The notes below the pieces were generated by a model. The model made no database searches, was not told where the DNA came from, and worked only from the letters and a program-made list of their open reading frames with translations. DNA of 64,000 nucleotides from Iocasia fonsfrigidae (GTDB taxonomy: Bacteria > Bacillota > Halanaerobiia > Halanaerobiales > DTU029), in NCBI RefSeq assembly GCF_017751145.1, contig NZ_CP046640.1, positions 248,001 through 312,000 of the forward strand, given 5' to 3'. Position numbers and translations under genes: made by a program. Every line of letters begins with the position of its first letter. The first letter of the stretch is position 1. This document shows positions 42,046-59,058 of this stretch, piece by piece.

Positions 42046-42124
42046 TTTGGGTCAACTCCTTATTATTATCTTATTTAAACCTTGAAATTCTACATGTAGA
42101 GTAAAAAGGATAGAAAGGATCAGA

Positions 42125-42147
42125 GTCACTCTATTTAATAGAGTGAC
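42125..42147. promoter_or_regulatory. Intra-operon hairpin between murP and mupG
   Basis: A perfect 11-bp inverted repeat, GTCACTCTATT and AATAGAGTGAC, with one central base, lies in the 168-bp gap of the minus-strand operon. There is no T-run on either side. It may stabilise the murQ-murP mRNA or attenuate mupG. Confidence 0.55.
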
Positions 42148-42213
42148 CCTGCTAATTTGGGAAAATACTCATTTATTGTTAGTTTTTTTAATTACTTAAA
42201 TAAGTCAGCATAA

Positions 42214-43638
42214 TTATTGTAATTCAGCAACATCCTGTTCTTTAATAAATAAGTGAGTTACTATAAACCCACCAAGATAGGCAATCACCAGTCCCATAAA
42301 ATAACTTAACATTGAGCCAGGCTGCATCAGTGGGATAGCAGAAATGCCGGATGGTCCCCAGGCCCCTGCCATTACATTTTGTAACATCACGAAAGCACCG
42401 CCAAAGCCTGCACCTAGACCAGCAGTAATAAATGGTTTGCCGAGGGGTAGAGTAACACCATAGATTAATGGTTCTCCAATTCCTAAAACACCAGCTGGTA
42501 AAGCACCAGATATTATCTGTTTCAATTTTATATTACCTGTCTTTTTTGCTTTTAAGTAAATTGCAATTGCAGCACCAACCTGCCCTGCCCCAGCCATAGC
42601 CAGAACCGGGAATAATGAAACTCCCCCCATATTTTCCAGTTGTAGGGCATAAATCGGAATTAACCCATGGTGTAAACCCAGTAAAACCATTGGTAAAAAC
42701 ACAGCTGACAGTATATAACCTGAGATTACACTAATAATTGGGTTTTCAGAAGCAACAAGTAAGGTTAAAGCAGCAACCAGCCAGTCAGATAGTATACCGG
42801 AAAGCGGCATAATAATAAAAATCATTGCCAAAGCCATAATTAGCATAGTAACAACTGGAGTGACTATCAAATCAAGTACATTCGGTACAACTTTTCTGAT
42901 TCTTTTTTCTATAATAGCAAGTATATAGACTCCAATAATAACTCCTATTATACCACCTTTACCGGAGCGTAAAATTGAATTTAGGGGTGAGGCAGCATCA
43001 AACATACCTACTGACTGAGATATTTCGTTAATCTGAGCCATAATTGTCAGAGCACCAATCATACCCCCAAGCCCTTCTGTTGCCCCAAATTGTTTAGCAG
43101 CATTAATACCGGTAAAAATAGTAAAATAACCAAGGAATGCTCCACCTAAAAGAGATAAGATAAGTTGAGTAAGATTCCAAAACTGAGACCCGGGTAGTGT
43201 GCCTGTATTTTGCAGGTTACTTATCAGACCAGCGAAACCATTGAAAATACCTGCAGCAATGATAGCTGGTATAAGTGGAATAAATATTTTTCCAATAATT
43301 TTTAAGGATTTTTTTAGTTTGTTCTGCTTTTGTCTTTCCTTTATTCTTTCTTTATTCTTCTGCCAGTTTTCCCCTACTTCAAGGTCTGATGAAATTCGAT
43401 ATTCGCTTTTTAAGATATCAAAACATTTTTTGGCGGTTCCAGGTCCGACAACAATCTGGAGAGTTTCATCTTCTACAACTCCCATAACTCCTTCAATTGA
43501 TTTTAATTTTTCAATATTTACTTCAGAATAATCTTTAATGTCAACCCGCAGCCGGGTCATGCAATTTGAAGCAGCAAGAATATTTTCTTTTCCACCAAGT
43601 TTCTCTACTATCTCAGCAAGCAATTTTTGATTAGTCAT
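42214..43638 (-). CDS. PTS EIIBC component, MurP-like (MurNAc or MurNAc-GlcNAc uptake)
   Basis: A phosphotransferase permease of the sucrose/glucose-type superfamily that imports and phosphorylates MurNAc-type sugars. The 474 residues equal E. coli MurP in length. The EIIB domain is residues 1 to about 85 with the phosphorylation Cys26 in [12 protein letters not shown]. The EIIC domain from about 115 to 460 has ten or so helices and the conserved [17 protein letters not shown] (positions about 391-407). No EIIA domain is present, so a shared EIIA(Glc) must donate phosphate. It starts inside the last four bases of murQ. Assignment as MurP rests on murQ and mupG. Confidence 0.87.
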
Positions 43639-44549
43639 CTTTTTTCCTCCTTAATTGTTTTTATCGCTTTGGCCAGATGTCCCTCATAGTTAGCTAATTG
43701 ACATTTGGCATTTTTTAAATCCAGTCCCGTCTCAATCATCATTATTGCTAATTTAACATTAAAATCAGTTTTTTTAAGATATTCTTCTGCTGTCTGATAA
43801 CTCACCTCACTTACAGATGTAATTATGTTTTTAGCTCTTTCAGCCAACTTTTGATTTTTTACCTGTAAATCTACCATATAGTTTTTATATACCTTACCCA
43901 ATTTAATCATGGTTGCTGTACTGAGTATATTTAAAACCATTTTCTGAGCTGTTCCGGCTTTCATTCTGGTTGAACCAGTGACAACTTCAGGCCCTACTAC
44001 TGGAGTAATAGATATTTTGGCAATTTTGGCAATTTTGGAATCAGGATTGCAACTTAAGGCAACAGTTCTGGCCTGTAAAGAATTCGCGTATTCTAGCCCA
44101 CTTATCACATAAGGGGTTTTACCACTAGCGGCAATGCCGACCAGAATGTCATTACTCGAAAAAGAGATTTCTTTTAATTGCTTAATTGCTTCTTCTTTAC
44201 TATCTTCTGCATTTTCTATAGAGTTTCTAATAGCTTTTTCCCCTCCGGCAATTAAACCTTGAACAAGATGATTGCTAACTCCGTAAGTAGGTGGGCATTC
44301 TGAAGCATCAAGAACTCCTAGTCTGCCGCTAGTACCTGCCCCAAGATATATTAAGCGACCACCTTTTTTTAAAGCTAAACTAATACTGTCAACTGCTTTT
44401 GCAATGTTTGTTAATTCTTTTTCTATAGCCTGTGCTACCAGTTTATCTTCTTGATTTATAATTTTGACAATTTCTATTGTCTCAATTTGATCAAGATTTT
44501 GAGAACGTGGATTTATGGATTCTGTGACTAAAGTATTCAAATTCTTCAT
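43635..44549 (-). CDS. murQ: N-acetylmuramic acid 6-phosphate etherase
   Basis: Cleaves the lactyl ether of MurNAc-6-phosphate to give GlcNAc-6-phosphate and D-lactate. From the ATG at 44549 (GGAGGTC four bases upstream; the longer frame from 44579 lacks a site) it has 304 residues and begins [20 protein letters not shown] as MurQ proteins do. The SIS fold has [21 protein letters not shown] (positions about 67-87, with the catalytic Glu84), [20 protein letters not shown] and [18 protein letters not shown]. It is the first gene of the operon and overlaps murP by four bases. Confidence 0.96.
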
Positions 44550-44590
44550 TTTTGACCTCCATTCAAAATATTCTTTCATTTCTTAAGAGC

Positions 44591-44650: not shown

Positions 44651-44958
44651 ATACCGAGAAATATATTCCTGTATGTGAATGAATTTATTATCTGTTTAAT
44701 ATTTTAAATTGATAGTTTCTTTAGAGTTTATTAAAGTTTTGACCAGATTCTAATATTGTAAGAGGTTTCCAGGAATTTTCACAAAATTAAATCAGTACTA
44801 GTAAAATATTTATTATTATAAGACTCTTTTATAATAAAGTTTCATGGCATAATTAAGTATACAAGAGCTTTTATTATTGGTATGATGGTAGAATTATTTG
44901 TTGATGATCGGTTAAATCAAGCATGACAGGTATTTTAATTTTTGAGGGGGAAAATAAT

Positions 44959-46053
44959 TTGAAACCTATCTGTTATTTGTCTGTTGGTCTGGATAACCTT
45001 GGTGATAAGGCCTGTCTGGAAGCATTTTTGAAAAAATTATCATCTTTATATCAGGGTAGTTCTGTTAAACCTGATATCTATCAGGTTTTATGGTATCAAT
45101 TTGACAAATTAAATATCCAGGAATTTTCTCTGGTAGTTTTAGGAGGGGGTTCTCTTCTGGCAACTAGTTATTATTTAAAGTGTTTATATCAAGCCCAGCA
45201 AGCAGGGGTGTCTACAGTAATCTGGGGTAGTGGTATTGATCATAGTGACCCTCAATTTACTGATGATTTACTTGCTGGCAGGGCAGAGGGAGTACCTGAT
45301 ATCGAGGAATTTTTTACTAGGAAAGTAAAATACCTACTCAGGTCTACAGTTAGTCAGGCAGGTTTAGTGGGGGTAAGGGGTCCTTATACTCTGAAAATAC
45401 TGCAGCTCCTTGATTGTCAGCTGGATAAAGTTTTTATTGCTGGGGATTCAGGTATCTTACTTGAACCAGATTTATCTCGGGATAATAATTTACATCTTAG
45501 CGAGAAAATGATAATGGTCAACTGGGGAACATCATATAATAAGGTTTATGGTGAGAATGAAGAAAAATTAGCTGGAGAACTGGCAGGGAGCCTGGATCAC
45601 TTACAGGAAGAGGGGTATCAGATTATTATCTATCCAGTCTGGGAACAAGATATTCCAGCAATATTTAGGCTTGTTGATGAAATGATTAATCAGGATAATT
45701 TAATTGTTATTAATAGGGTTTTACCCAGTAGCCAGCTTTTATGGTATATATCCCAGGCTAGCCTATCAATTAACTTTAAACTACACCCCTGTATATTTTC
45801 TGCAGCAGTAGGGGTACCTTTTATTTCATTGGCCTACCGTTTTAAATGTTTTGATTTTGCAGAGTCAGTTAAATGTCAGGAACTATGTATAAGGACTGAT
45901 GTCTGTGATATTAAGAAGGAGATATTAGATAGAGTTAAATATATCAGGGACAATAAAAATACTTATTATAACAAGTTTTTGCAGTATAAATCAGCTTTTA
46001 ACAAGAAGTATGACTTTCTAATAGAATATATAGATGAGACAATAAAAAAGTAG
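44959..46053 (+). CDS. Polysaccharide pyruvyl transferase family protein (CsaB-like)
   Basis: Enzymes of this family transfer pyruvate from PEP to a glycan as a ketal, giving a negative charge that in CsaB-type systems anchors S-layer proteins. The start is TTG 44959 with GAGGGGG eight bases upstream, giving 364 residues (an upstream ATG at 44923 has no site). Family features are the glycosyltransferase-B-like start ICYLSVGLDNLGDKACLEAF (positions about 4-23), LVVLGGGSLLATSYYLKCLY (near 58), VIWGSGID, GVRGPYTL, GDSGILLEP, and the late SINFKLHPCIFSAAVGVPFISL (positions about 270-291) that ends in the usual HxxI-type helix. It heads the glycan cluster. Confidence 0.82.
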   Translation: MKPICYLSVGLDNLGDKACLEAFLKKLSSLYQGSSVKPDIYQVLWYQFDKLNIQEFSLVVLGGGSLLATSYYLKCLYQAQQAGVSTVIWGSGIDHSDPQFTDDLLAGRAEGVPDIEEFFTRKVKYLLRSTVSQAGLVGVRGPYTLKILQLLDCQLDKVFIAGDSGILLEPDLSRDNNLHLSEKMIMVNWGTSYNKVYGENEEKLAGELAGSLDHLQEEGYQIIIYPVWEQDIPAIFRLVDEMINQDNLIVINRVLPSSQLLWYISQASLSINFKLHPCIFSAAVGVPFISLAYRFKCFDFAESVKCQELCIRTDVCDIKKEILDRVKYIRDNKNTYYNKFLQYKSAFNKKYDFLIEYIDETIKK

Positions 46054-46208
46054 GTTTTTTTCCATCAATGTTGGAGACAGCAAGTATTAGTGTTGTTTTG
46101 CGGGTCAGGGAGGAGTGGTAACAATTGTTAGCACATAATGTATTAGTCTATCATATAGTATATTAATTCATATATATTATATTATAGCAAGAGAAAGGAG
46201 AGAAAGCT

Positions 46209-46802
46209 ATGCCTAACTTTAAGGTGAGAAACTTTTCAGTTGACAGGCTTAAAACCCAGATATTTGGTACGAGTACAGAGAATCCCATTGCTACAGATAG
46301 TGATGGTTTGCTAAGGATACGAAGTATTTCAGATGCTATTTCTGTTGATATGACTGGCACAGTAGATATTCGTGACCTCACTGCCAGTAGTGACAGTATT
46401 GAAATATATGGTTTTGATGGCACCAATATTCAGAGGATCCAGACAGATACAGAGGGGAATATTAGAACACATCTAACAGCACGGGATTTTTCAGAGTTAA
46501 CAGAAACCGGGCTTGTTTCTACTGATGCTTTTACCTTTAGTGAACCTAGAGACAATTCTGAATTTACCACCTATTCGTTTGCGGTTTATAATTCTGGTGC
46601 TACTAATAGTATTGATGCCAGATTAGAGGTTAGTGCTGATACCGACCAGTGGTATGCCGATACGGCCGCAAGGAGTATATCAGCTGCCAGTGTAGATGTC
46701 TTCTTCCCGGCCAGTTTTCTTAAATATACCAGAGTAGCCTACAGGAGTACAGATGCAGGTAATGCTTCGTCACTGGATATCTTTTTTCAGGCTCAATTAT
46801 AA
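46209..46802 (+). CDS. DUF6385-like beta-rich protein
   Basis: A 197-residue protein without signal peptide or membrane segment. Residues 1 to about 95 are Thr/Ser/Asp/Ile-rich with short repeats such as SDGLLRIRS, GTVDIRDL and EGNIRTHL, probably beta strands. The C-terminal part (about 118-197) has SFAVYNSGATNSIDARLEVS, DQWYADTAA and FPASFLKYTRVAYRS, matching what I know as DUF6385 and also the end of the protein at 54375. The start is ATG 46209 behind AAAGGAGAG. It has its own terminator. Upstream CATATAGT near 46153 faintly resembles a sporulation sigma-E -10. I think it is a surface structural protein, perhaps the glycosylation target of its neighbours; that is inference. Confidence 0.7.
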   Translation: MPNFKVRNFSVDRLKTQIFGTSTENPIATDSDGLLRIRSISDAISVDMTGTVDIRDLTASSDSIEIYGFDGTNIQRIQTDTEGNIRTHLTARDFSELTETGLVSTDAFTFSEPRDNSEFTTYSFAVYNSGATNSIDARLEVSADTDQWYADTAARSISAASVDVFFPASFLKYTRVAYRSTDAGNASSLDIFFQAQL

Positions 46803-46811
46803 GGTAATTAT

Positions 46812-46835
46812 AGGGGGCCCTTTTCGGGCCTTTTT
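46812..46835 (+). terminator. Rho-independent terminator after the DUF6385-like gene
   Basis: GGCCC (46816-46820), loop TTTTC, GGGCC (46826-46830), extended by G-U and A-U pairs, followed by TTTTT (46831-46835). It separates the structural gene from the glycosyltransferases. Confidence 0.82.
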
Positions 46836-46870
46836 ATTCTAGAATGTTTTGGATGGAGAGATTAAATGAA

Positions 46871-48940
46871 ATGAAAAGACCAACAATAAGTCTTTGTATG
46901 ATTGTTAAAGATGAGGAAGAAAATCTTAAAAGGTGTTTGGATAGTGTCAAGGGTTTAGTTAAGGAAATAATTCTGGTGGACACAGGTTCAACAGATAATA
47001 CATTACAGATAGCTCAAGCTTACGGGGCAAAAATTATTAATTATAAGTGGGTAGATGATTTCAGTAAGGCAAGAAATAAATCATTGGCGGCGGCAGGGGG
47101 AGACTGGATATTATATCTTGATGCTGATGAGGAGTTACCTGAAGTAAGCCGTCAAATGTTAAAAAAAATAATTAACGCCCCTGATATTGAGGGTTACTTC
47201 TTTCAAGTTCTTAATTATACAGGTAAAAAGAGGGACTATTCGCAACTGGTACATCAGAGTTGCCGTTTGTTTAGAAATAGATTGGATTATCAATTTCAGG
47301 GAAAAATACATGAACAGATCCTACCTTCAATCTATCAATATTCTTCCCAGACCCAGGTTTTGAAGACGGATTTAAAGATAATTCATTATGGATATATGTC
47401 TGCTAATAGTAAGCGGAAAGAAAAACTGGAGAGGAATATTCGCATACTTAATAAAGAATTAGAAAGGTTTAGAAGTAATTCTTTTTTAGAATACCACCTT
47501 GGACTCTCTTATTATGAATTAGCAGATAAGAAAAAGGCCCTGGCCTGGTTTAAAAAGGCCTACAGTCATCTGGAAAGGGGTTATTCCTTTAGTCCAACTT
47601 TAATCAGGAATATTGGTCTTTGCTTATTTGACCTACAGGAATATAGTGAAGTGATAGGATTTATTGATTATGAGTTAGATAATTACCCTGACTATACAGA
47701 CCTTTATTATTTAAAGGGATTGGCGTTATTAAAAAACATTAATTACTCTCAGGCGATAAAAGAATTTGAACAATGTCTTTTAATTGGGGAAGTCTGTGGT
47801 AAATATACAACAACTGTTGGGGTAGGTAGTTTTTTAGGGCATTATAATCTGGCTAATGCCTATAAAGGGCGTTATGAGCGGGAAAAAGCAATAAAACATT
47901 ACAGGGAATCATTAAGTGTAGAACCTGATTTTTTAGACCCCCTTTACCCACTGACAAAACTATTAAAGGAGAAATATCAAAACCCAGCAGAACTTATTTC
48001 ATATCTGGAAACAGAATTTGATCTGTCCAGCTGGCAGGGTTTTATTATTCTGGCTGATTTATGTGCTTCTATCAGGGAAGATGCTCTAGCAGCAAATTAT
48101 TTAGCAAGGGTAGCAGTAAATACTAAACTTCCTTTAGAGGCAAGGCTGTTATATGCTAAATCACAACTTGCTTTAGGCAGATATAATCAGGTCTACAGGG
48201 ATTTTACATGCTTAATAGCAGAAGGTATTGAGTCGGAAACTTTTATTATTGAGTATTTTATAGCTTGCTGGTTAAAGAATTCTGCTGAGGGTATTGATAA
48301 GCTGACAGAAATTATTCAGGGGCTGTCTGATCAAGGGTTAAAATATATTTTATCCAGTATGAATAATATCTGTTGTGACAATCAGCAGAATATGGGATTA
48401 AAGAATAAGTTAAAAAAAGGGATTCAGAAATTAATTAATAAATATAGACAAAATGATGCTGAACAAAAACATACTATCAATGATTATCAGCATAAACTCA
48501 TTTATGTTCTGGAAAAAATCCTTCGCTACAATGCCTATGAATTATTTGATACCTTGACTGGTAAATTAATTACTGATTTAGGGATAGATGAGTGGGAAAA
48601 GGATTTTATTATTGGGGAGATATATTATAAGTATGGTTATTATAATGAGGCCAGCAGGGAATTTTTAAAGAGTCTGGATCATGGTGGTGAAGATGACCGA
48701 CTTTATTATTATCTTGGCTGCATCTGCGAAAAGAGGGAACTACTGGCTGATGCTGAGAATCTCTACTGTTATGCCTTAAATAATAATGAAAGACTGCTAA
48801 AATATCACCTGGCTGTAGTAAGGGTAGCACTCAAAAGGGCCCAGAAGATAAGTAGCTGGGTTTTAAAAGAAAAACCAGAGGCAGCTTATTTTCTCAAAGA
48901 AGAAAAAACACTAAAATACCTTTTGGGAAAACTGGGTTAG
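46871..48940 (+). CDS. Family 2 glycosyltransferase with TPR repeats (first)
   Basis: An inverting GT-A transferase fused to helical repeats. The start is ATG 46871 (GGAGAG ten bases upstream), 689 residues. The catalytic domain is about 5-230, with SLCMIVKDEEENLKRCLDSV (positions about 7-26), VDTGSTD (36-42), the metal-binding LDADEE (83-88) and a substrate segment GKIHEQI. From about 200 the protein becomes TPR-like, with repeats such as YHLGLSYYELADKKKALAWFKKA split over residues 205-230, and DLYYLKGLALLKNINYSQAI and GHYNLANAYKGRYEREKAIKHY further on. It carries no membrane segment. Similar proteins glycosylate protein targets; sugar and target are unknown. Confidence 0.85.
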   Translation: MKRPTISLCMIVKDEEENLKRCLDSVKGLVKEIILVDTGSTDNTLQIAQAYGAKIINYKWVDDFSKARNKSLAAAGGDWILYLDADEELPEVSRQMLKKIINAPDIEGYFFQVLNYTGKKRDYSQLVHQSCRLFRNRLDYQFQGKIHEQILPSIYQYSSQTQVLKTDLKIIHYGYMSANSKRKEKLERNIRILNKELERFRSNSFLEYHLGLSYYELADKKKALAWFKKAYSHLERGYSFSPTLIRNIGLCLFDLQEYSEVIGFIDYELDNYPDYTDLYYLKGLALLKNINYSQAIKEFEQCLLIGEVCGKYTTTVGVGSFLGHYNLANAYKGRYEREKAIKHYRESLSVEPDFLDPLYPLTKLLKEKYQNPAELISYLETEFDLSSWQGFIILADLCASIREDALAANYLARVAVNTKLPLEARLLYAKSQLALGRYNQVYRDFTCLIAEGIESETFIIEYFIACWLKNSAEGIDKLTEIIQGLSDQGLKYILSSMNNICCDNQQNMGLKNKLKKGIQKLINKYRQNDAEQKHTINDYQHKLIYVLEKILRYNAYELFDTLTGKLITDLGIDEWEKDFIIGEIYYKYGYYNEASREFLKSLDHGGEDDRLYYYLGCICEKRELLADAENLYCYALNNNERLLKYHLAVVRVALKRAQKISSWVLKEKPEAAYFLKEEKTLKYLLGKLG

Positions 48941-48950
48941 GGGTGGTTTA

Positions 48951-50933
48951 ATGTCTGATAAATTATTGAGTGTCTGTTTGATTACAAAAGATGAGGCCCA
49001 GAATCTGGCTACTTGTTTAAAAAGTATCAAGAACCTGGCCGATGAAATCATAGTTGTTGATACAGGTTCTACTGATAATACAGTTGAAATAGCCCGCAAA
49101 TTTGGGGCCAGGGTATATGTTTTTCCCTGGAATAATAATTTTTCAGCAGCAAGGAATTTTGCCCTTAAACAGGCAGAGGGATGCTGGGTTTTTATTATTG
49201 ATGCTGATGAAGAGCTTAAAACAATTGCTAAAAAGGAATGGATGTCACTACTTAATGATCAGGGGAAAGAGGCTTATTTTGTACAGATATCTAATTATGA
49301 AGACAGGCAGAACAGTGTATCTCAACCGGCCTTAAGGCTTTTCAGGAATAAAAAGGATTATTATTATCAAGGCAGGATACATGAACAGATTTTGCCCCAA
49401 ATTTTGAAAAAAAACCCCTTTTCAAAAATAGGATATACTGATCTTTTAATAAACCACTACGGTTATACCAGTCAAATGGTTGAACAGAAAAAGAAAATAG
49501 AGAGAAATATAGGCATTTTACAGCTTGAGTTAAAACACAATCCTAAAAATCCTTTTATGCGTTTTAACCTGGGAAATGAATATTACCGTCAGGGTGAATA
49601 TAAACTGGCAATCTGGCAGTACAGGGCTGTTCTTGAGTCTATTGATAAGCAATTTAGTTATTACCCTTATTTAATCTTTAAATTAGCTATAGCTTACTTA
49701 GCAGGGGGATATCATCTGGAATGCAGGAGAATATTACAGGATGGTTTAAAGGAATTCCCTGATTATACTGATCTTTATTATTTATTAGGTGAAACCTATT
49801 TAAATACTGGGGATTTTGCAAAGGCTGTAGGGGTTTTCGAGAAATGTTTGGAACTGGGTGCTCCTCCTTCCCAGTATGTTTCAATAAATGGTGTAGGTAC
49901 TGATAAAGCTGCCTATTACCTGGGAAAGTGTTATGAATACAACTTTAATATTGATAAAGCAATTGATTATTACCACTTAGCATTCACCCAAAACCCTACT
50001 AATAGCAATATTTTGCAGGATTTATTAGATTTATATGTTAAGTACCACAGTGAAAAGGAAATGGAAAATTTCATTAGCACAAATAGTGCTTCTCTTAGGG
50101 GTAAGGCCCTGAATTTATTACTGAAAGAGATAGTGGATTATTATCCTGGTCTTGTTATTAAAATATATGAAGAGGGGTTTTGCAGTTCAGTTGTAGAAAA
50201 AAACTATATTATTACCCAGGCCTACTGGAATAAGGGTGAATTGGATAAATTAGATGGTATTTTTAATAGTTTTTCTCCTGATGATTATCAAATAAAGGAG
50301 TTAAGCATCTTATTATATCAATATTACTGGTACAGGGGTAACAGGGAAGGGATAGTGACTTTGATTGAAACACAGGGAGAACAGGCCTACTTTAATATTA
50401 AAGAAATAGATTATCTTTTTACTGGCCGGAAAAGTCTGGGGACTGTCAAGGACTCTACTTTGTTGGAAACCCTCTATCTTTTATTAAAAAATTACCTGAC
50501 AATAGCTTATCAACCTGGAATTGATAAAATACTTGATATATACCAGGGTATAATATTATCTGATAGTATGAAGATGAAGCTGGGAAAACTTCTTTTTAGA
50601 AAGGGCTGTTGGAGGGAAGCAATAGATCAATTCCTGGGACTTAAAGATCAAAAACTGGATGAAGAATCACTAAGATATCTGGCTGTAATGGTTCTAGAAG
50701 GGGATGATATGCAGGCTGCTTTTGATTTTATGCAAAAGGCTTTAACTGATCAAGAAGCCAGTTTGATAAGCTGTTTAACTTACTTGAAGTTGTTATATAT
50801 CAATATAATGGATTATTGTCAAAAATCGGCCGGGGTTTTCACTGATTATCCGTATTTTACGGAGATTGAAGAAGGGATTCAAAAGGGGGTTGACAGGATT
50901 GACACTTTCAATCTGTATGATAGTCAGGGATGA
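48951..50933 (+). CDS. Family 2 glycosyltransferase with TPR repeats (second)
   Basis: Parallel in design to the gene before it and starting 10 bp after its stop: GT-A domain at about 5-230 with SVCLITKDEAQNLATCLKSI (7-26), VDTGSTD (36-42), DADEE (84-88) and GRIHEQI. It then has TPR-like helices, e.g. FNLGNEYYRQGEYKLAIWQY (about 205-224), LYYLLGETYLNTGDFAKAVG and YYLGKCYEYNFNIDKAIDYY, and a long helical C-terminal half to residue 660. The start is ATG 48951 behind GGGGTGG. Its 3' end overlaps the next gene by 35 bases. The two enzymes probably add successive sugars or act on different targets. Confidence 0.85.
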   Translation: MSDKLLSVCLITKDEAQNLATCLKSIKNLADEIIVVDTGSTDNTVEIARKFGARVYVFPWNNNFSAARNFALKQAEGCWVFIIDADEELKTIAKKEWMSLLNDQGKEAYFVQISNYEDRQNSVSQPALRLFRNKKDYYYQGRIHEQILPQILKKNPFSKIGYTDLLINHYGYTSQMVEQKKKIERNIGILQLELKHNPKNPFMRFNLGNEYYRQGEYKLAIWQYRAVLESIDKQFSYYPYLIFKLAIAYLAGGYHLECRRILQDGLKEFPDYTDLYYLLGETYLNTGDFAKAVGVFEKCLELGAPPSQYVSINGVGTDKAAYYLGKCYEYNFNIDKAIDYYHLAFTQNPTNSNILQDLLDLYVKYHSEKEMENFISTNSASLRGKALNLLLKEIVDYYPGLVIKIYEEGFCSSVVEKNYIITQAYWNKGELDKLDGIFNSFSPDDYQIKELSILLYQYYWYRGNREGIVTLIETQGEQAYFNIKEIDYLFTGRKSLGTVKDSTLLETLYLLLKNYLTIAYQPGIDKILDIYQGIILSDSMKMKLGKLLFRKGCWREAIDQFLGLKDQKLDEESLRYLAVMVLEGDDMQAAFDFMQKALTDQEASLISCLTYLKLLYINIMDYCQKSAGVFTDYPYFTEIEEGIQKGVDRIDTFNLYDSQG

Positions 50934-52116
50934 AGAAGATTACCTCCCTGACTGCCTGGATAGTATTGCTGAACTGGCAGATGAGTTAATAGTTGTTGAT
51001 ACAGGTTCTACTGATCAGACCTTAAACATTGCTGAGAGCTATGGAGCCAGGATATTTCAGATAGATTGGGAACATAATTTTGCTGTTGCCAGAAATTATT
51101 CCCTTGCCAGAGCCAGTGGTGATTGGATATTTGTTCTTGATGCCGATGAACGACTTCCTTTGAAATTCCACAGTCGGGTCAGGGGGCTGCTGAAGAAGGC
51201 TTTAGAAAATAATATAGCGGGTTGGCTGGTCCAGATTAAAAACTACTATGGTAGTGTAAAATCTGGTGATTATGTACTTGATTCAGCCTGCCGTATTTTC
51301 CGGAACCAGGTTGAATATCGTTACAGCTCCCCCTTACATGAGGAGATGTCCCAGGTCATTCAGGAGAATGATCCCGAAGCAGTAATACTAAAGACTGATA
51401 TTTACTTAGAACACCTTGGATATTTAGACCAGCTAGTCAGCGGAAAAAGGAAGAGCAGGAGGAATACCCTGATCCTTGAAAAGGCTTTAAAAAAAGCACC
51501 GTGTGACCCTTTTTTAATCTATGCCTATGGAACAGAGTTGTTTCAACAGAATAATTATCAGGGGGCTCTACAATATTATAAAAAAATCACTGCCAATCTG
51601 GCAGAATTAAGTTTTGGAGCAGATTTATTATATAAAACAGTAACTGCCTTACTGCAGCAGGAAGAATATATAAAAGGCATGAATTTACTAAAGAAAGGTC
51701 TTAAACTTTTTCCCGATTTTCAGGCATTGTGGTTTGTTAAAGGTGAATACCACCTTAGATGTAATGAATTCAAGAAGGCCATAGCTGCCTACCATAGCTG
51801 TCTACAGCTTAATAACAATAATAATAAATTTTTGGAAATAAATGGTTTGAGCTCCTTCAGGACTTATCATGCCCTGGCAAGGGTTTATGAGATGATGGGA
51901 GAAGATAGTAAGGCTATTGATTATTATTTGCAGGCCTTAAGGGAAAATCCAGGGTATCAAGCAGTAATAAATGGGCTTAAAGGATTATTAATCAAAATAA
52001 AGAAGAGGGCTATAGATTATTTAGATTTATCAAAGGTGGCTGAAAAATATGACCCTATTTATGACCTTTATAGGGAATGGCTAATGGATGGTGAGTTAAG
52101 TGAAAAAATTAAGTAA
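50899..52116 (+). CDS. Family 2 glycosyltransferase with TPR repeats (third)
   Basis: A shorter member of the set, 405 residues from TTG 50899. This start is favoured because AAAGGGGG (50882-50889) lies nine bases upstream and because the protein then begins MTLSICMIVRDEEDYLPDCL like its two relatives. TTG 50890 and TTG 50866 are in-frame alternatives. VDTGSTD (33-39) and DADE (81-84) mark the catalytic site. TPR-like stretches include FLIYAYGTELFQQNNYQGAL, LWFVKGEYHLRCNEFKKAIA and YHALARVYEMMGEDSKAIDYY (about residues 315-335). It overlaps the genes on both sides, so the whole group is one transcript. Confidence 0.84.
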   Translation: MTLSICMIVRDEEDYLPDCLDSIAELADELIVVDTGSTDQTLNIAESYGARIFQIDWEHNFAVARNYSLARASGDWIFVLDADERLPLKFHSRVRGLLKKALENNIAGWLVQIKNYYGSVKSGDYVLDSACRIFRNQVEYRYSSPLHEEMSQVIQENDPEAVILKTDIYLEHLGYLDQLVSGKRKSRRNTLILEKALKKAPCDPFLIYAYGTELFQQNNYQGALQYYKKITANLAELSFGADLLYKTVTALLQQEEYIKGMNLLKKGLKLFPDFQALWFVKGEYHLRCNEFKKAIAAYHSCLQLNNNNNKFLEINGLSSFRTYHALARVYEMMGEDSKAIDYYLQALRENPGYQAVINGLKGLLIKIKKRAIDYLDLSKVAEKYDPIYDLYREWLMDGELSEKIK

Positions 52117-54361
52117 GGAATTCAAATTATTGAGTATGATGAGGGTTAAAAATGAGGAACAGTGGTTAGAGGAATCTATTATTAGTCAACTTCCACTGGT
52201 TGATAAGCTTATTATTCTGGATGATGGTTCTACTGATCAAACCCCTGAAATATGTAAGTCTTTTCCTCGCTTAGTTGAATATCACTATCAGAAAGAGAAT
52301 AAGCTGGATGAGGTTAGGGATAAGAACCGTTTATTAGCCTGGGCATTAAAACACCAACCTGACTGGATACTGGCACTGGATGGGGATGAGGTCTTAGAAG
52401 AACTGGCTGGAGAAACAATTATCAGAGAGATAAGCCTACTGGACCCGCTTGCTCCACAATTTACTGTTTTTTATCTCCACTTTCTTTATATGTGGAATAA
52501 AAAAGACTATTATCGGATTGACCCCGGGATCTATAGTAATTTCTGGCAGCCTAGATTGTTTTCCCTGCATAAGCAGAATATAGGGCGCCTTTTATTTAAA
52601 AATACTGACCATGGTGGAAACTTTCACTGTGGTAGTATACCAGCTAATCTCAGATGGATTCTTCGTAAATTAGATGTCCGGGTAAAACACTATGGTTATT
52701 TTACTGCTGAACAGCGTCGGAGGAAATATGACTGGTATTGTCAGCATGATCCGCAAAAGGCCAAAACTGGTTATTATGAACACCTTATTTCAGAGGAAGG
52801 ACTTATCTTAGCTAAATGGAAAGAGAGAAAGAGAAGCAGTTCAGCCAGTTTTGTTAAGGATATAGGCTATTACCAGTGCAGTAGGGAAGAGATTTTAAAT
52901 TTAATCTCTGATAATAGTCAAAAGATATTAGAAATTGGTTGTGGCCATGGATTTTTAGGGAAAAAAATTAAAGAGAGATACCCGGACAGTCAGGTTATGG
53001 GGGTTGAGATTGATGAAATAGCTGGTAATGCCGCCAAAGATAGGCTTGACAGGGTGATAATTGCTGACATAGAAAAACTGATAAAACTGCCGGTTGAATA
53101 TGCTTATTTTGATTGTATTATACTAGGTGATGTCCTGGAACATTTAATAGACCCCTGGCAGGTCTTACTAAAATTGAGGAGGTATTTAAAAATATCAGGG
53201 GAGTTAATTATCAGCTTACCCAATGTTAGAAACATAGGGATAATCAATAAGTTATTACAGGGAAAGTGGCGTTATACTAATGCCGGAATACTTGATTCTA
53301 CCCACCTTAGATTTTTTACCTTTAAGGAGGTTAAAAGGATACTTAGGAAACTTGGTTTCAATATTAAGGCTGTTTATACAGTTGAAGGTGATAGTAGTGA
53401 TTTAGTAATTCAGGGAAAGGAATCCTGGCAGGTGATAGGTGATAGTTTTGAATGGTCTCAACTTGACCAAAAGACTATTCAGGAACTCCATACAGTCCAG
53501 TTTTTAATAAGGGCTGGTAGGGAAGAACCTTTAAGAGAAGCTGGAGAAAAAGGCTTAATATCAGTTATTATACCTGTTCGAAATAATAGAGAAATTACAG
53601 AGTTGTGTATTGATAGTCTTTTTAGTTATAACCAGGAACCCCTGGAAGTGATTATTATTGATAATGATTCAGATGAACAGATGAGGAGTTATTTGTCTGG
53701 GCTGGAAGAAGAAGGGGTAAAAGTTATTAATAATGAAAAGAATTATGGTTTTCCAGCAGCATGTAATCAGGGACTTAGGATAAGCAGGGGTGAGTATATC
53801 CTCATTTTAAATAATGATGTTATTATGGGCGATAATTGCCTGGCTAATATGATGGCACATTTTGAGCGGGAAAGTAAGGCTGGAATAATAGCCCCCTGTT
53901 CAAATTATGTGGACGGGAAACAGCAGCTTATTTTGAATTATAATAGTTTAGAGGAATTTTACCAGGTATCTCGTGAATATTACTGGGAATATGAGGGTGA
54001 ATATATGTTGAGTTATCGGCTGGCTGGGATTTGTCTACTGCTTAAAAGGGGAGTTATAGAAACAATTGGGGGATTTGATGAAAGGTTTTCACCAGGGAAT
54101 TTTGAAGATGATGATTTTTGCCTGCGTGCTGCAGTAGCTGGGTATAAAAATATCATTGCCCGGGATGTATATGTCCATCATTTTGGGAGTATGACTTTTA
54201 AAAAGGAAGGTTTAGATTATCAACAAATAATGAAAGAAAACTGGAATAAGTTTAAAGAAAAGTGGAAAATACCCGGGGAGCTTACTGATAGACGTCAGCT
54301 TAATCTAGCTTTGATTGTTAGTAGTAATATGGGAAAAGGGGATTACTATATTCCATTATAA
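52100..54361 (+). CDS. Three-domain enzyme: glycosyltransferase, methyltransferase, glycosyltransferase
   Basis: A 753-residue fusion. Residues 8 to about 240 are a GT-A domain with DDGSTD (41-46) and LDGDE (93-97). Residues about 255-425 are an SAM-dependent methyltransferase with EIGCGHGFLG (278-287), GVEIDE near 301 and GDVLEHLIDPW (343-353). Residues about 487-690 are a second GT2 domain with SVIIPVRNNREITELCIDSL (488-507), ILNNDV (569-574), and FSPGNFEDDDFCLRA, the EDDD acid group typical of rhamnosyl- or galactofuranosyl-type transferases. The start is GTG 52100, overlapping the previous gene. It could add a sugar, methylate it and add a second, or cap a chain with an O-methyl sugar. 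Confidence 0.85.
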   Translation: MKKLSKEFKLLSMMRVKNEEQWLEESIISQLPLVDKLIILDDGSTDQTPEICKSFPRLVEYHYQKENKLDEVRDKNRLLAWALKHQPDWILALDGDEVLEELAGETIIREISLLDPLAPQFTVFYLHFLYMWNKKDYYRIDPGIYSNFWQPRLFSLHKQNIGRLLFKNTDHGGNFHCGSIPANLRWILRKLDVRVKHYGYFTAEQRRRKYDWYCQHDPQKAKTGYYEHLISEEGLILAKWKERKRSSSASFVKDIGYYQCSREEILNLISDNSQKILEIGCGHGFLGKKIKERYPDSQVMGVEIDEIAGNAAKDRLDRVIIADIEKLIKLPVEYAYFDCIILGDVLEHLIDPWQVLLKLRRYLKISGELIISLPNVRNIGIINKLLQGKWRYTNAGILDSTHLRFFTFKEVKRILRKLGFNIKAVYTVEGDSSDLVIQGKESWQVIGDSFEWSQLDQKTIQELHTVQFLIRAGREEPLREAGEKGLISVIIPVRNNREITELCIDSLFSYNQEPLEVIIIDNDSDEQMRSYLSGLEEEGVKVINNEKNYGFPAACNQGLRISRGEYILILNNDVIMGDNCLANMMAHFERESKAGIIAPCSNYVDGKQQLILNYNSLEEFYQVSREYYWEYEGEYMLSYRLAGICLLLKRGVIETIGGFDERFSPGNFEDDDFCLRAAVAGYKNIIARDVYVHHFGSMTFKKEGLDYQQIMKENWNKFKEKWKIPGELTDRRQLNLALIVSSNMGKGDYYIPL

Positions 54362-54374
54362 AGGGGTGAAAAAA

Positions 54375-55151
54375 GTGGGCACAAACTTTTATTTAGAAAC
54401 CTATCTCCATAGATTTACTTTTTATCATTATCTTGTGGAGTTAGTTAATATACCTGAAAGCAGTAACATTGTAAAGATTAAGGATATTAAGGCCAGTGTT
54501 TTGCAGCTGGAAGATGAAAAAGTAAATGAAAATAATTTTATAATTCAAGGTATTATTGAACTGGAAATAAGTTATGTGATTGCCAATGTTGTTAAGTTTT
54601 ATAATACAAGGATTACCTTTAATTTTCTTAAAGGGCTTAAGCAGTGCTATGGAGAGAAAGATGCTTGTTTTCCAGAAAACTGCGAATTATTAATTCAAGC
54701 TAGTTCAAGAGTGATTAAGAATAGTCTGTTACCTGATAATCAAGTAGAGGTAAAAATCGCTATTCTCTTTCAGGGGTGTTTTAAGGTATTTCAGGACTGT
54801 AGTTCAATCTGGAAATGTGCAGACATAGAAGTTAATTGTGTGCCTGCTTTTGAGTCCCATAAAAATGAAGATCTATCGGTAGGAAATATAGCGGAATTTA
54901 CCCAAGCCTTTAATATTGCCCAAAAGGAGTTGATTACTTTTTTTGTCAAAAACAAAGGGGACTCACTGGTTAATGTTCAGCTTGAAATAAGTCCCAATGG
55001 GGTTGACTGGACAGCAGATGCTTATGAGGTAGAGATTCCACCTGGTCAGGGTGAAGCACTTGTCCTGGCAACCTTTCTAAAATACACCCGTTTAAAATAT
55101 TATTCATTAAATAACAGTCTTATTGATATTTATCTCCAGACACAAGGTTAA
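54375..55151 (+). CDS. SPOCS-like (DUF3794) domain joined to a DUF6385-like domain
   Basis: The start is GTG 54375, with AGGGGTGA six bases upstream, giving 258 residues; the longer frame from 54315 would run inside the previous gene. Residues about 30-140 resemble a SPOCS domain: FIIQGIIELEISYV (55-68), then a FYNTRITFNFLKG segment and VEVKIAILFQGCFKV. SPOCS domains occur in spore-coat morphogenetic proteins such as SipL. Residues about 175-258 (AFNIAQKELITFFVKNKGDS, VQLEISPNGVDW, ATFLKYTRLKYYS) are homologous to the end of the protein at 46209. No signal peptide. I infer an adaptor that docks DUF6385-type material on a surface, perhaps the spore. The DUF6385 match is firm, the SPOCS match moderate. 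Confidence 0.68.
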   Translation: MGTNFYLETYLHRFTFYHYLVELVNIPESSNIVKIKDIKASVLQLEDEKVNENNFIIQGIIELEISYVIANVVKFYNTRITFNFLKGLKQCYGEKDACFPENCELLIQASSRVIKNSLLPDNQVEVKIAILFQGCFKVFQDCSSIWKCADIEVNCVPAFESHKNEDLSVGNIAEFTQAFNIAQKELITFFVKNKGDSLVNVQLEISPNGVDWTADAYEVEIPPGQGEALVLATFLKYTRLKYYSLNNSLIDIYLQTQG

Positions 55152-55170
55152 ATAACAGGAGGAGGGTATT

Positions 55171-55908
55171 ATGAAAGCAAGAAAAATAATCTTTATTATT
55201 GGTTCCGGTAGGACTGGTACTAACTGGTTAGCTAATATTTTGCAGAGCCACCCAGCAATCAGGGCTACTATTGAAGATCCAATGATTTTTAATAGGGTGA
55301 CTAAAATGGCTCTAAATCCAGCTGTTAGGGCCAAATTATTTCCAGAATTAATTCGACTTTATACCTATTATTATCAGGAAAGTAGTCCCTGTCATTATGT
55401 AGATAAAAGTCATCCTAACCTTTGGTTGGCAGAGGCTTTAGCCCTTGTGTTTCCTGACTCCCTTTTTATATCTTTAAAGCGTAACCCCTATGCTACAGTA
55501 AGTAGTATGCTGAAGCATGAGGGGGTTTTAAAGTGGCAGAGAGAATGGAAAAGGTTCCCTATACCTAATGAATTTTTAGGTATTGATCATAAAATAGCAG
55601 CTGATTATTCTAAAATGTCTATGACTGAAAAGTGTACATTAAGATGGGTAGCTCACATGAAAAAGATTGATTATCTTGCCAAAAGTAATATAAAAAACCG
55701 TATGCTTATTATTTCTTATGAGAGATTAGTGGAAAATACTATAGAAGTATTAATAAAAATAAAGAAATTTCTAGATCTATCGGAATCTTTTAATGTGCCA
55801 GTTGTAAATAAAGAAACGATTTATAAATGGCAGCAACAGCTCAGTGAGAGCCAATGTGAGGAAATCAAAGGGATTGTGGGGGAATACCAGCCCATATTTA
55901 CAGAATAG
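55171..55908 (+). CDS. Sulfotransferase family protein
   Basis: Sulfotransferases move a sulfuryl group from PAPS to a hydroxyl of a glycan or other acceptor. The 245-residue protein has the 5'-phosphosulfate loop IIGSGRTGTNWLANILQSHP (9-28) and the 3'-phosphate motif SLKRNPYATVSSML (101-114, with Arg104 and Ser111), plus the late IISYERLVENTIEVLIKI segment. The start is ATG 55171 behind AGGAGGAGG. It is the last gene of the glycan cluster and 19 bp after the SPOCS-like gene. Together with the pyruvyl transferase it would make the glycan acidic. No PAPS synthesis genes are visible here. Confidence 0.85.
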   Translation: MKARKIIFIIGSGRTGTNWLANILQSHPAIRATIEDPMIFNRVTKMALNPAVRAKLFPELIRLYTYYYQESSPCHYVDKSHPNLWLAEALALVFPDSLFISLKRNPYATVSSMLKHEGVLKWQREWKRFPIPNEFLGIDHKIAADYSKMSMTEKCTLRWVAHMKKIDYLAKSNIKNRMLIISYERLVENTIEVLIKIKKFLDLSESFNVPVVNKETIYKWQQQLSESQCEEIKGIVGEYQPIFTE

Positions 55909-56106: not shown

Positions 56107-56483
56107 ATATTCTCATTTGGTGTCGAGAGTTTATTAATACGCATGGTTGGGTCAGTAGCAGGTTGCTTGTTCTCTAATGATGTAATACATAAATGTTATT
56201 TTGATAAGTTGAAGATTTATAGCTGTATTAAGTTATAGGATATTTTTTTAAATTATAATGTACGAACAATTAAAAGTAAATGTGGTTTAAAATGTAGTTA
56301 TATTCTTTTTTATTTTTTAATATCTTTTAATAGACTGAGTTTATTAAGCGTTAATGAAGTAAGAGAAAGGGGGATAGATTAAAGGTTGCTTTATAATTAG
56401 CTGAAAAGCAGGGATTCTTATCGATTAAGTAGAGGGTTTTATTTTGATGTAAAGGCTTATTTGCTTTTGGAGGAGTGGTAAGT

Positions 56484-57974
56484 TTGAGTAATAATTATCT
56501 TTTAGAAATGAAGGGTATTACAAAGAAATTCCCTGGTGTGCTGGCCTTAGACAAGGCTAGTTTTAACTTGAGAAAAGGAGAGGTCCATGCTCTGATAGGT
56601 GAAAATGGGGCAGGAAAATCTACTCTGATCAAAATACTTTCAGGAGCTTATCAGATGGATGAGGGTGTAATAATTATTAATAATGAAAAGGTAAGTATAC
56701 AAAACCCTGGAAAAGCCCAGGAACTTGGTATAAGTGTTATTTATCAGGAATTCAATCTGATTCCATATTTAACTGTTGCTGAGAATATATTTCTCGGTCG
56801 TGAGTCTATGAAAAACGGGTGTTTAATAGATACAAAAGATATTATTGATAATTCCAGAAAGATTTTAGATGACCTGGATTTAGGACTTGCTCCTGATAAG
56901 ATTGTTAATGAACTTGGTGTGGCTAAACAGCAAATGGTTGAAGTGGCTAAAGCCTTATCAATGAATTCTCGTATAATTGTTATGGATGAGCCTACTGCAG
57001 CCCTGGGAGACCATGAGATTGAACAGTTGTTTAAGACAATAAAAGAGCTTAAAAAAAGAGGCATTTCAATAATTTATATTTCCCACCGTATTGAGGAGTT
57101 ATGGGAAATAGCAGATAGGGTTACTGTGCTACGTGATGGCCAGTATATTGCAACTACAGATATTAAAGAAATAAATAAGGATAAGTTGATCAAGCAGATG
57201 GTTGGTAGGGATTTAACAGAACAGTTCCCGGCCAGAAAGTCTGCTGTTGGCCAAGAAATATTACGGGTAGATGGCTTGTCTCAAGAAGGATTATTAAAGA
57301 ATATATCATTTAATTTAAAAAAGGGTGAGGTACTCGGCTTTGCCGGTCTAGTAGGTTCGGGTCGGACAGAATTAATGAGGTGTATATTTGGTGTAGATAA
57401 ATATAATGATGGCAAGATATTTATAGATAATAAAGAGGTTTCGATAAACAATCCCAAGGCTGCAATAAGACAAGGTATTGGGTTTATTACTGAAGACCGT
57501 AAAAGCCAGGGGCTTATCCTGGTCAGGTCAATCAAAGAAAATATTACTATTACTGACTTGAATCAGGTAATAGATAATGGTTTTATTAATTATAAAAAAG
57601 AGCAGAAATTAACCGAAGATTTTATCAATAAGTTAAAGATTAAGACCCCTAGTATTGAACAGGAAGTAAGGTATTTAAGTGGTGGCAACCAGCAGAAAGT
57701 TGTACTGGCCAAGTGGCTACTCCAGAAGGCTAAGATCCTTATTTTTGACGAACCGACCAGGGGGATAGATGTTGGGGCTAAAAAAGAGGTATATAACCTG
57801 ATTAATAGTCTGGTCCAGAATGGTGTTGGTGTGATTATGGTTTCTTCAGAACTCCCGGAAGTAATGGGTATGAGTGATAGGATTTTAATTATGAGTCACG
57901 GTAGGATAACGGGTGAACTATCAGCCCCGGAAGCGACCCAGGAGAAAATATTAAATTATGCAACCAAGGAGTGA
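56484..57974 (+). CDS. Orphan sugar ABC transporter, ATP-binding protein
   Basis: A double ATPase of the RbsA/MglA type, 496 residues from TTG 56484 (GGAGGAG eight bases upstream; GTG 56475 abuts that site). First domain: GENGAGKS (38-45), YQEFNLIPYLTVAENIFLG (positions about 92-110), IVMDEPTAAL. Second: altered GLVGSGRTE, LSGGNQQKVVLAKWL, LIFDEPTRGIDVGAK. It is close to the ATPase of the fucose cluster. The operon has only transport genes, so the sugar cannot be named. Confidence 0.91.
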   Translation: MSNNYLLEMKGITKKFPGVLALDKASFNLRKGEVHALIGENGAGKSTLIKILSGAYQMDEGVIIINNEKVSIQNPGKAQELGISVIYQEFNLIPYLTVAENIFLGRESMKNGCLIDTKDIIDNSRKILDDLDLGLAPDKIVNELGVAKQQMVEVAKALSMNSRIIVMDEPTAALGDHEIEQLFKTIKELKKRGISIIYISHRIEELWEIADRVTVLRDGQYIATTDIKEINKDKLIKQMVGRDLTEQFPARKSAVGQEILRVDGLSQEGLLKNISFNLKKGEVLGFAGLVGSGRTELMRCIFGVDKYNDGKIFIDNKEVSINNPKAAIRQGIGFITEDRKSQGLILVRSIKENITITDLNQVIDNGFINYKKEQKLTEDFINKLKIKTPSIEQEVRYLSGGNQQKVVLAKWLLQKAKILIFDEPTRGIDVGAKKEVYNLINSLVQNGVGVIMVSSELPEVMGMSDRILIMSHGRITGELSAPEATQEKILNYATKE

Positions 57975-57981
57975 ATTATTG

Positions 57982-58974
57982 ATGGATAAATCTCTTAAAA
58001 AGGTAAGCAGTTCGATAGGAAAGGAATTAGGGGCCCTTACTGGTTTAATATTACTAGGTGTTATTATGTCTTTTAGTTCTCCTCACTTCCTTACTTTAAC
58101 AAATTTGATGAATATCTTACGACAGTCATCATTAATCGGTATTGTTGCTGCTGGAATGACATTTATTATAATTACTGGAGGGATAGACCTTTCTGTTGGC
58201 TCTGTCCTGAGTTTATCAAGTTGTTTGACTGCTGGTATGATTGTAAACTATGGTTGGAATATCTGGTTGGCAATAATGTTAGGTTTATTAATTGGTGCAC
58301 TATTTGGTTTGATTAATGGACTGTTAATTACCCAGATACCTCTACCACCGTTTATTGCTACCCTTGGTATTATGGGTGTGGCCAGAGGCCTAGCCTTTGT
58401 CTATACTGGGGGGGCCCCTATCTATACCTTTCCTGAATCATTTAAATATATCGGCCAGGGAATGATAGGTGTAATACCATTTCCGGCGATATTAATGCTG
58501 CTGGTATATTTAGTATTTTTTCTGGTGCTTAAGCGAACTAAACTAGGGCGTTATAGTTATGCTATTGGTGGAAATGAAGAAGCGGCTATTTTGTCTGGTA
58601 TATCTACTGGGCGTTATAAGGCAATGGTCTATGCTATGACAGGTTTTTTGTCAGCACTGGCTGGCTTAGTACTAGCTGCCCGACTGGATGCTGCTACATC
58701 AGTTGCTGGTGACGGTTTTGAACTTGATGTAATAGCGGCTGTTGTTATTGGTGGTACTAGTTTAAGTGGTGGACAGGGTGGGGTAATTGGCTCTCTGATA
58801 GGTGCTTTAATCATGGGTGTAGTTAGAAACGGCCTGAATCTTTTATTGGTTTCTTCACACTGGCAGAGGGTAATATTGGGTTTAATTATACTTGCTGCTG
58901 TAACTGTTGATGTTTTACGCAAGAAAAGTAGTTCCAATAAGGGTTCATTATTTAGTTTTTTAAGTAGTAATTAG
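57982..58974 (+). CDS. Orphan sugar ABC transporter permease
   Basis: An RbsC-type permease, 330 residues from ATG 57982 (AAGGAG upstream; the longer frame from 57958 lies inside the ATPase gene). [19 protein letters not shown] (positions about 65-83) and [20 protein letters not shown] (positions about 246-265) are the membrane and ATPase-contact motifs. As the single permease it should form a homodimer. The Ser-rich C-terminal tail after VDVLRKKS is a small oddity. Confidence 0.92.
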   Translation: MDKSLKKVSSSIGKELGALTGLILLGVIMSFSSPHFLTLTNLMNILRQSSLIGIVAAGMTFIIITGGIDLSVGSVLSLSSCLTAGMIVNYGWNIWLAIMLGLLIGALFGLINGLLITQIPLPPFIATLGIMGVARGLAFVYTGGAPIYTFPESFKYIGQGMIGVIPFPAILMLLVYLVFFLVLKRTKLGRYSYAIGGNEEAAILSGISTGRYKAMVYAMTGFLSALAGLVLAARLDAATSVAGDGFELDVIAAVVIGGTSLSGGQGGVIGSLIGALIMGVVRNGLNLLLVSSHWQRVILGLIILAAVTVDVLRKKSSSNKGSLFSFLSSN

Positions 58975-59058
58975 TTTTCTTTCACGGGGGTGGTTTATGG
59001 ATAAATAATCTAAATTAGAGTGAATTAAGAAAACTAAAATTTTAAAGGAGGAATTTAA

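Follow-up and report, generated by a model that had tools for sequence, protein, structure and literature searches.

We analysed a 64,000-nucleotide stretch of the Iocasia fonsfrigidae genome (contig NZ_CP046640.1, positions 248,001 to 312,000; hereafter the window, in which all coordinates below are counted) and found in it a cluster built around two proteins of the Pfam family DUF6385 (PF19912), which is a real, recurrent and previously unnamed spore-associated module. The six genes at 46209-55151 probably make a glycosylated spore-surface protein: a stalk-and-head protein, D1, would be docked by a partner, D2, in which a SPOCS-like domain is joined to a DUF6385 domain. We put the probability of this reading at roughly two in three. 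A search of the literature, with subscription papers outside its scope, turned up no mention of DUF6385. The six genes are as follows.

46209 to 46802, + strand: D1, stalk-and-head DUF6385 protein, made up of an N-terminal MPNFK motif, a single stalk unit and a C-terminal DUF6385 head (head at 46551-46796; Pfam DUF6385, residues 115-196, E 6e-28)
46844 to 48940, + strand: family 2 glycosyltransferase (GT2) fused to TPR, candidate protein glycosyltransferase (Pfam GT2 and TPR)
48951 to 50933, + strand: TPR-fused GT2 (Pfam GT2 and TPR)
50869 to 52116 (start approximate), + strand: TPR-fused GT2 (Pfam GT2 and TPR)
52100 to 54361, + strand: GT2-methyltransferase-GT2 protein (Pfam)
54375 to 55151, + strand: D2, the predicted docking partner, with a SPOCS-like N-terminal domain (about 54441-54797; sub-threshold Pfam SPOCS, residues 31-83, E 1e-3) and a DUF6385 domain (54912-55145; Pfam DUF6385, residues 180-257, E 3.5e-23)

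With one neighbour on either side, described below, these genes form a run of eight, all on the + strand and several of them overlapping (48951-50933 with 50869-52116, and the latter with the gene that begins at 52100). An original prediction, made by eye from the letters of the sequence, had described this arrangement, and both the open reading frame calls and the Pfam domains bear it out: the DUF6385-like protein, the three TPR-fused GT2s, the GT2-methyltransferase-GT2 protein and a downstream sulfotransferase were all named in agreement with Pfam. The two DUF6385 proteins score 97.1 and 81.9 bits against a family cut-off of 26.8 bits, and they are the only two encoded in the 3.93-Mb genome. 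Their DUF6385 ends, which the prediction had called homologous, align with 35% identity (E 6e-10).

The cluster is not confined to this organism. Our comparisons drew on two sets of loci: the first consists of the neighbourhoods of DUF6385 genes, with genes called, from a phylum sample of 398 genomes, and the second of named genomes found by a scan with a five-row alignment, which are mostly Paenibacillus and include a few genomes of the first set. DUF6385 is carried by 56 of the 398 sampled genomes, and all of the named carriers are Bacillota. Among the loci counted, 30 have two DUF6385 genes, three have three and 17 have one. TPR-GT2 fusions are present at 36 of the 51 first-set loci, as against none of 20 random 20-kb stretches of the same genomes (p=1e-8), and in 77 of 81 loci of the second set. 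Within the class Halanaerobiia, DUF6385 was found only in three genomes from two families (G000, G150 and G434), and in these the order D1, three TPR-GT2s, GT2-methyltransferase-GT2, SPOCS-DUF6385 is identical. Across the three operons the orthologues are 62-66% identical for D1, 42-59% for the enzymes and 25-31% for D2; the TPR-GT2 at 50869-52116 is 49-50% identical to its orthologues in loci L040 and L116, and the GT2-methyltransferase-GT2 protein is 57-59% identical to its own.

Several signals point to a role of these loci in sporulation. SpoIVA is present in 54 of the 56 DUF6385 genomes, the two others being 75-80% complete, and at a completeness of 90% or more it is found in 47 of 47 carriers against a baseline of 307 of 356 (p=6e-4), a modest enrichment. 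The window's own genome has both SpoIVA and a sigK gene above cut-off, and the gap before D1 contains the following element.

46132 to 46160, + strand: sigmaK-like promoter (CACA...CATATAGTA), in a 155-bp gap, 48 bp upstream of the 46209 start codon

The pattern used, AC-N14-17-CATAnnnTA, follows the consensus of C. difficile sigmaK, the factor that controls the bclA genes of that organism (PMC3789822). It has four matches on both strands of the entire window, and the L040 orthologue has a site at nearly the same distance from its D1 gene. In the first set, such promoters precede 18 of 54 DUF6385 genes, against 14 of the 264 remaining genes in those loci (p=8e-8); a sigmaE pattern showed no enrichment upstream of DUF6385 genes. 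In the second set, the sigmaK -10 motif alone precedes 19 of 39 DUF6385 genes and 49 of 457 others (p=3e-8), and control patterns were not enriched there. When similar upstream regions were counted once, the full motif stood before D1-type genes 15 times in the forward orientation against twice in the reversed one. Finally, none of the proteins of the window cluster has a signal peptide or a membrane segment, as expected of spore proteins assembled from the mother-cell cytoplasm and not of exported wall proteins.

The architecture of D1 is best seen in its relatives. A motif search gave 94 of them, a few of which may be chance matches, with about 20 conserved N-terminal residues (MPNFxxFxxxPxxLRxxIxG) and DUF6385 at the C-terminus; D1 itself begins MPNFKVR, the family consensus being MPN[FY]xxF, and contains no cysteines. 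Between these constant ends lies a stalk of 45 to 1545 residues, 13-37% Ser/Thr and often composed of near-exact repeats. The unit DIRDLTAxSDSVxIYGxDGTxxxxIxTDxxG is present in about 20 copies in the L077 protein and in one copy in D1 of the window. Very long stalks are found in D1-type proteins of 1172 aa (L077:8171-11689), where the stalk is a series of near-identical tandem units, and of 1648 aa (L197:5306-10252). D1 might instead be compact, a coat protein in which the stalk repeats have no particular role, with D2 serving only to recruit the glycosyltransferases to the coat. The single stalk unit of the window protein would suit that description, as would its N-terminal half, to which AlphaFold 2 (AF2) gave no confident fold (pLDDT 60-84), but the wide range of stalk lengths between constant ends is what is seen in stalk proteins, and we consider a compact D1 rather unlikely.

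The head of D1 was modelled by AF2 with high confidence (pLDDT about 98) as a jelly-roll. Its best fold matches include the endospore appendage (ENA) protein Ena1B (Z 11.0, root-mean-square deviation 4.8), followed among the ENAs by Ena2A (9.7), Ena3A (9.3) and Ena1C (8.7). Because the unrelated jelly-rolls PirA and XepA match equally well, these scores indicate a class of fold and not kinship with ENAs. By sequence, DUF6385 gave only weak matches to solved structures, a CBM32 and a phage cementing protein.

The second DUF6385 protein, D2, has a start codon supported by its orthologues and an N-terminal domain that is probably a divergent SPOCS, judging from profile comparisons. The SPOCS model matches D2 orthologues in 3 of 3 cases (best E 3e-4), and hhalign aligned the domain to the genome's own SPOCS domains with a probability of 92% (E 6e-7), in keeping with the SPOCS relation proposed originally. 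Modelled by itself, apart from DUF6385, the SPOCS half is predicted to have six long strands (AF2, pLDDT 84). The SPOCS domain of SpoVID binds CotE (PMC10867305). D2 resembles SipL and the other SPOCS (DUF3794, PF12673) proteins of coat morphogenesis in an N-terminal domain that aligns with SPOCS; unlike SipL, which has three DUF3794 domains and LysM (PMC6436350), it has one divergent SPOCS, lacks LysM and is fused to DUF6385. Among the loci compared, the SPOCS-DUF6385 partner was confined to the three Halanaerobiia genomes. Elsewhere the DUF6385 partners begin with a CBM96-type module, with an uncharacterised 'NQVYNGDF' module or with a basic stretch, and a fixed head with varying N-terminal modules fits an anchor-like role. 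In two 165-aa partners (L079:10706-11203 and L086:10645-11142) the N-terminus is rich in Arg/Lys and has neither CBM96 nor SPOCS. At a distance from the DUF6385 cluster, G000:C1:3473419-3480902 (L089) encodes four adjacent proteins, 506-655 aa long, each of which has several SPOCS domains.

The glycosyltransferases point to protein as their substrate. The nearest solved structures to the TPR-GT2 at 46844-48940 are GmaR (E 1e-37) and SunS (E 1e-25), and the nearest to that at 48951-50933 is GmaR (E 5e-36); both have the DAD motif, and the DXD motifs of the enzymes are intact. GmaR acts on flagellin and SunS on a peptide. The SunS equivalog itself (TIGR04195) is not matched, at 110 bits against a cut-off of 350. 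In C. difficile, the GT2 gene sgtA lies beside bclA3, and its product puts O-GlcNAc on threonines of the BclA3 stalk (PMC7157674). From the kinship with GmaR and SunS, the SgtA parallel and the intact DXD motifs, protein glycosylation with D1 as the acceptor appears the likeliest role of the TPR-GT2 enzymes. We also considered that the GT2 enzymes build a free spore polysaccharide, which the DUF6385 proteins bind rather than accept. CBM96 modules are fused to DUF6385 in several relatives, the jelly-roll heads resemble lectins and carbohydrate-binding modules, and the second half of the 52100-54361 product resembles a polysaccharide-type GT2 (chondroitin synthase), all of which would accord with a free glycan. 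We nevertheless regard this as unlikely: the closest relatives of the TPR-GT2s are the protein and peptide glycosyltransferases named above, the cluster lacks a flippase, a polymerase and a membrane glycosyltransferase, and the stalks are often rich in Ser/Thr.

These observations suggest how a glycosylated, docked D1 would be made. Transcription of D1 would depend on sigmaK in the mother cell, and a hairpin behind the gene would reduce readthrough into the enzyme genes.

46812 to 46834, + strand: intrinsic-terminator-like hairpin between D1 and the glycosyltransferases (minimum free energy -12.7 kcal/mol, z -1.55), followed by a U run

A terminator pattern scan did not pick up this hairpin, and the case for a terminator that lets D1 be made in excess is weak. 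In the cytoplasm of the mother cell, D1 and perhaps D2 would receive sugars on Ser/Thr from the TPR-GT2 enzymes, and the GT2-methyltransferase-GT2 protein would lengthen and methylate the glycan. D2 would take its place in the coat by means of its SPOCS part and would grip D1 through contact between the two DUF6385 domains, so that like domains join; the parallel is the F-Anchor and F-ENA, which have DUF4183. On the spore, D1 might stand as single hairs or as polymers. The original view of 46209 as a glycosylated structural protein and of 54375 as its SPOCS-bearing docking partner gains support, at the level of sequence, from the SPOCS relation in all three orthologues, the recurrence of TPR-GT2 and the sporulation signals; the spore link, which had been raised as a possibility, is strengthened by the sigmaK-like promoters, the SpoIVA co-occurrence and the SPOCS-like domain.

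A number of points weigh against a glycosylated spore-surface protein. The main text of one Moorella spore proteome names no such protein. The SpoIVA enrichment is modest because 84% of the sample has SpoIVA and the genomes are related, not independent. Two thirds of the DUF6385 genes have no strict sigmaK match within 300 bp, and 15 of the 51 first-set loci have no TPR-GT2 in the fetched stretch, some contigs ending early. The PF12673 score of D2 (19.8 bits) falls below the curated cut-off of 23.6, for which reason we call the domain SPOCS-like. Nor does its fold decide SPOCS membership, since no solved SPOCS relative was found by sequence in the PDB and the predicted domain had no significant Foldseek match.

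Two genes flank the six-gene core on the same strand.

44923 to 46053, + strand: pyruvyl transferase (Pfam PS_pyruv_trans, E 8e-26); neighbour, probably accessory
55171 to 55908, + strand: sulfotransferase (Pfam Sulfotransfer_3, E 7e-21); neighbour, probably accessory

Neither gene lies beside the two orthologous operons, and neither was found in the other DUF6385 loci, where the single-sequence models used could miss very remote relatives. We therefore set the core at 46209-55151 and treat the two as neighbours, for which action on the same glycan is possible but uncertain. Within the class, the relatives of the pyruvyl transferase are all remote. It belongs to the pyruvyl transferase family (PF04230), so that the label 'CsaB-like' was right as to family but loose as to CsaB itself, whose equivalog model (TIGR03609) requires 213 bits, the window protein scoring 72. 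For the sulfotransferase, a single close relative (50% identity) was found in the class. It lies in the region L216:9358-17047 of genome G439, which lacks DUF6385, close to rml-like sugar genes and to a pair of Cys-rich proteins without a Pfam match. Sulfation is possible in the organism, as its genome encodes APS kinases. The original prediction had made pyruvylation and sulfation parts of the system and expected DUF6385 to recur with both enzymes as well as with TPR-GT2; the latter association holds, but the former does not, and an 'acidic glycan' as a conserved system is not supported. Its analogy with S-layer anchoring is likewise unlikely, given that signal peptides and membrane segments are absent from the cluster proteins. 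For the same reason we give little credence to the cluster as an acidic glycan locus of the vegetative cell surface (S-layer or wall), with DUF6385 proteins exported to carry or bind the glycan: the two flanking enzymes on the same strand and the APS kinases, which could supply the sulfate donor, would fit it, but the enzymes are missing from the related loci, a sigmaK-like promoter precedes 46209 and the family is restricted to SpoIVA genomes.

A glycosylated D1 docked by D2 invites comparison with known spore-surface systems. F-ENA has a hook, a neck of variable length and a trimeric head, its anchors bring DUF4183 on another N-terminus, and F-Anchor has been modelled to hold F-ENA through the common DUF4183 domain (PMC11952670). 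The DUF6385 system is like F-ENA in the N-terminal MP- motif, the beta neck of varying length, the C-terminal head and the separate anchor with the same head domain, and putative O-glycans have been described on F-ENA-4 (PMC11952670). It differs in that its anchor uses SPOCS or CBM96 where that of F-ENA uses collagen or CsxA, and in that D1 (MPNFKVR) does not match the strict hook M-P-[IV]-[IV]-[KQ]-P-[FY]. DUF6385 as a relative of DUF4183 was ruled out by profile-profile comparison (probability 0.3%), the cluster has no DUF4183 Pfam match, and the DUF6385-positive genomes that were tested yielded no DUF4183. A DUF4183 gene occurs at L214:8080-11848 (G346), beside a gene for an F-Anchor-3-like protein of 1050 aa with three DUF4183 domains; no TPR-GT2 is nearby.

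BclA and BclA3-SgtA share with the DUF6385 system an anchor-stalk-head layout, a variable stalk, neighbouring GT2 genes and sigmaK control, which for the DUF6385 genes is predicted from their promoters (PMC7157674, PMC3789822). Here, unlike in BclA, the head is DUF6385, there are several GT2 genes, mostly with TPR, instead of one, and a separate SPOCS- or CBM96-DUF6385 protein is the anchor. No collagen Gly-X-Y stalk was detected by Pfam in D1 or was visible in the relatives' stalks inspected. Among the S-ENA and L-ENA pilins (PF13157, 'Enas'), four match the jelly-roll head of D1 at Z 8.7-11.0, scores that unrelated jelly-rolls reach as well; neither D1 nor D2 matches PF13157, and there is no sequence match to ENA chains. 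A PF13157 search of the DUF6385 genomes gave no match, but as it gave none in the controls either, absence is not proven. We found no homology of the system to BclA or F-ENA. Because DUF6385 is not kin to DUF4183 by profile and DUF4183 was not found in the tested carriers, the system may resemble F-ENA or BclA in how it works while being a member of neither group.

Spore surfaces govern adhesion, persistence and recognition, and the best-described spore fibres, BclA and the ENAs, are known chiefly from the Bacillus cereus group and C. difficile. If our interpretation is right, spore formers including Paenibacillus, Carboxydothermus and Desulfosporosinus have a surface system separate from these, and the cluster tells us which protein it is built of, what anchors it and which enzymes add its sugars. 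DUF6385 would then have a function open to experiment, and the Ser/Thr-containing stalk with its dedicated TPR-GT2 enzymes would amount to a compact protein-glycosylation system. More tentatively, and as a reading that we would not yet favour, DUF6385 proteins could polymerise or stand as long hairs and so make up a class of endospore appendage not described before, widespread among anaerobic spore formers and in Paenibacillus. Such appendages would come with protein glycosyltransferases of their own, and their anchor, whether SPOCS, CBM96 or another, would be exchangeable and joined by the common head.

The surroundings of the cluster were annotated by eye. A MurNAc-type operon on the - strand (40142-44579; SIS-domain regulator, MupG-like protein, phosphotransferase system permease and MurQ-like etherase) diverges from it, and a ribose-type sugar ABC transporter is encoded on the + strand at 56475-59985, 3' of the sulfotransferase.

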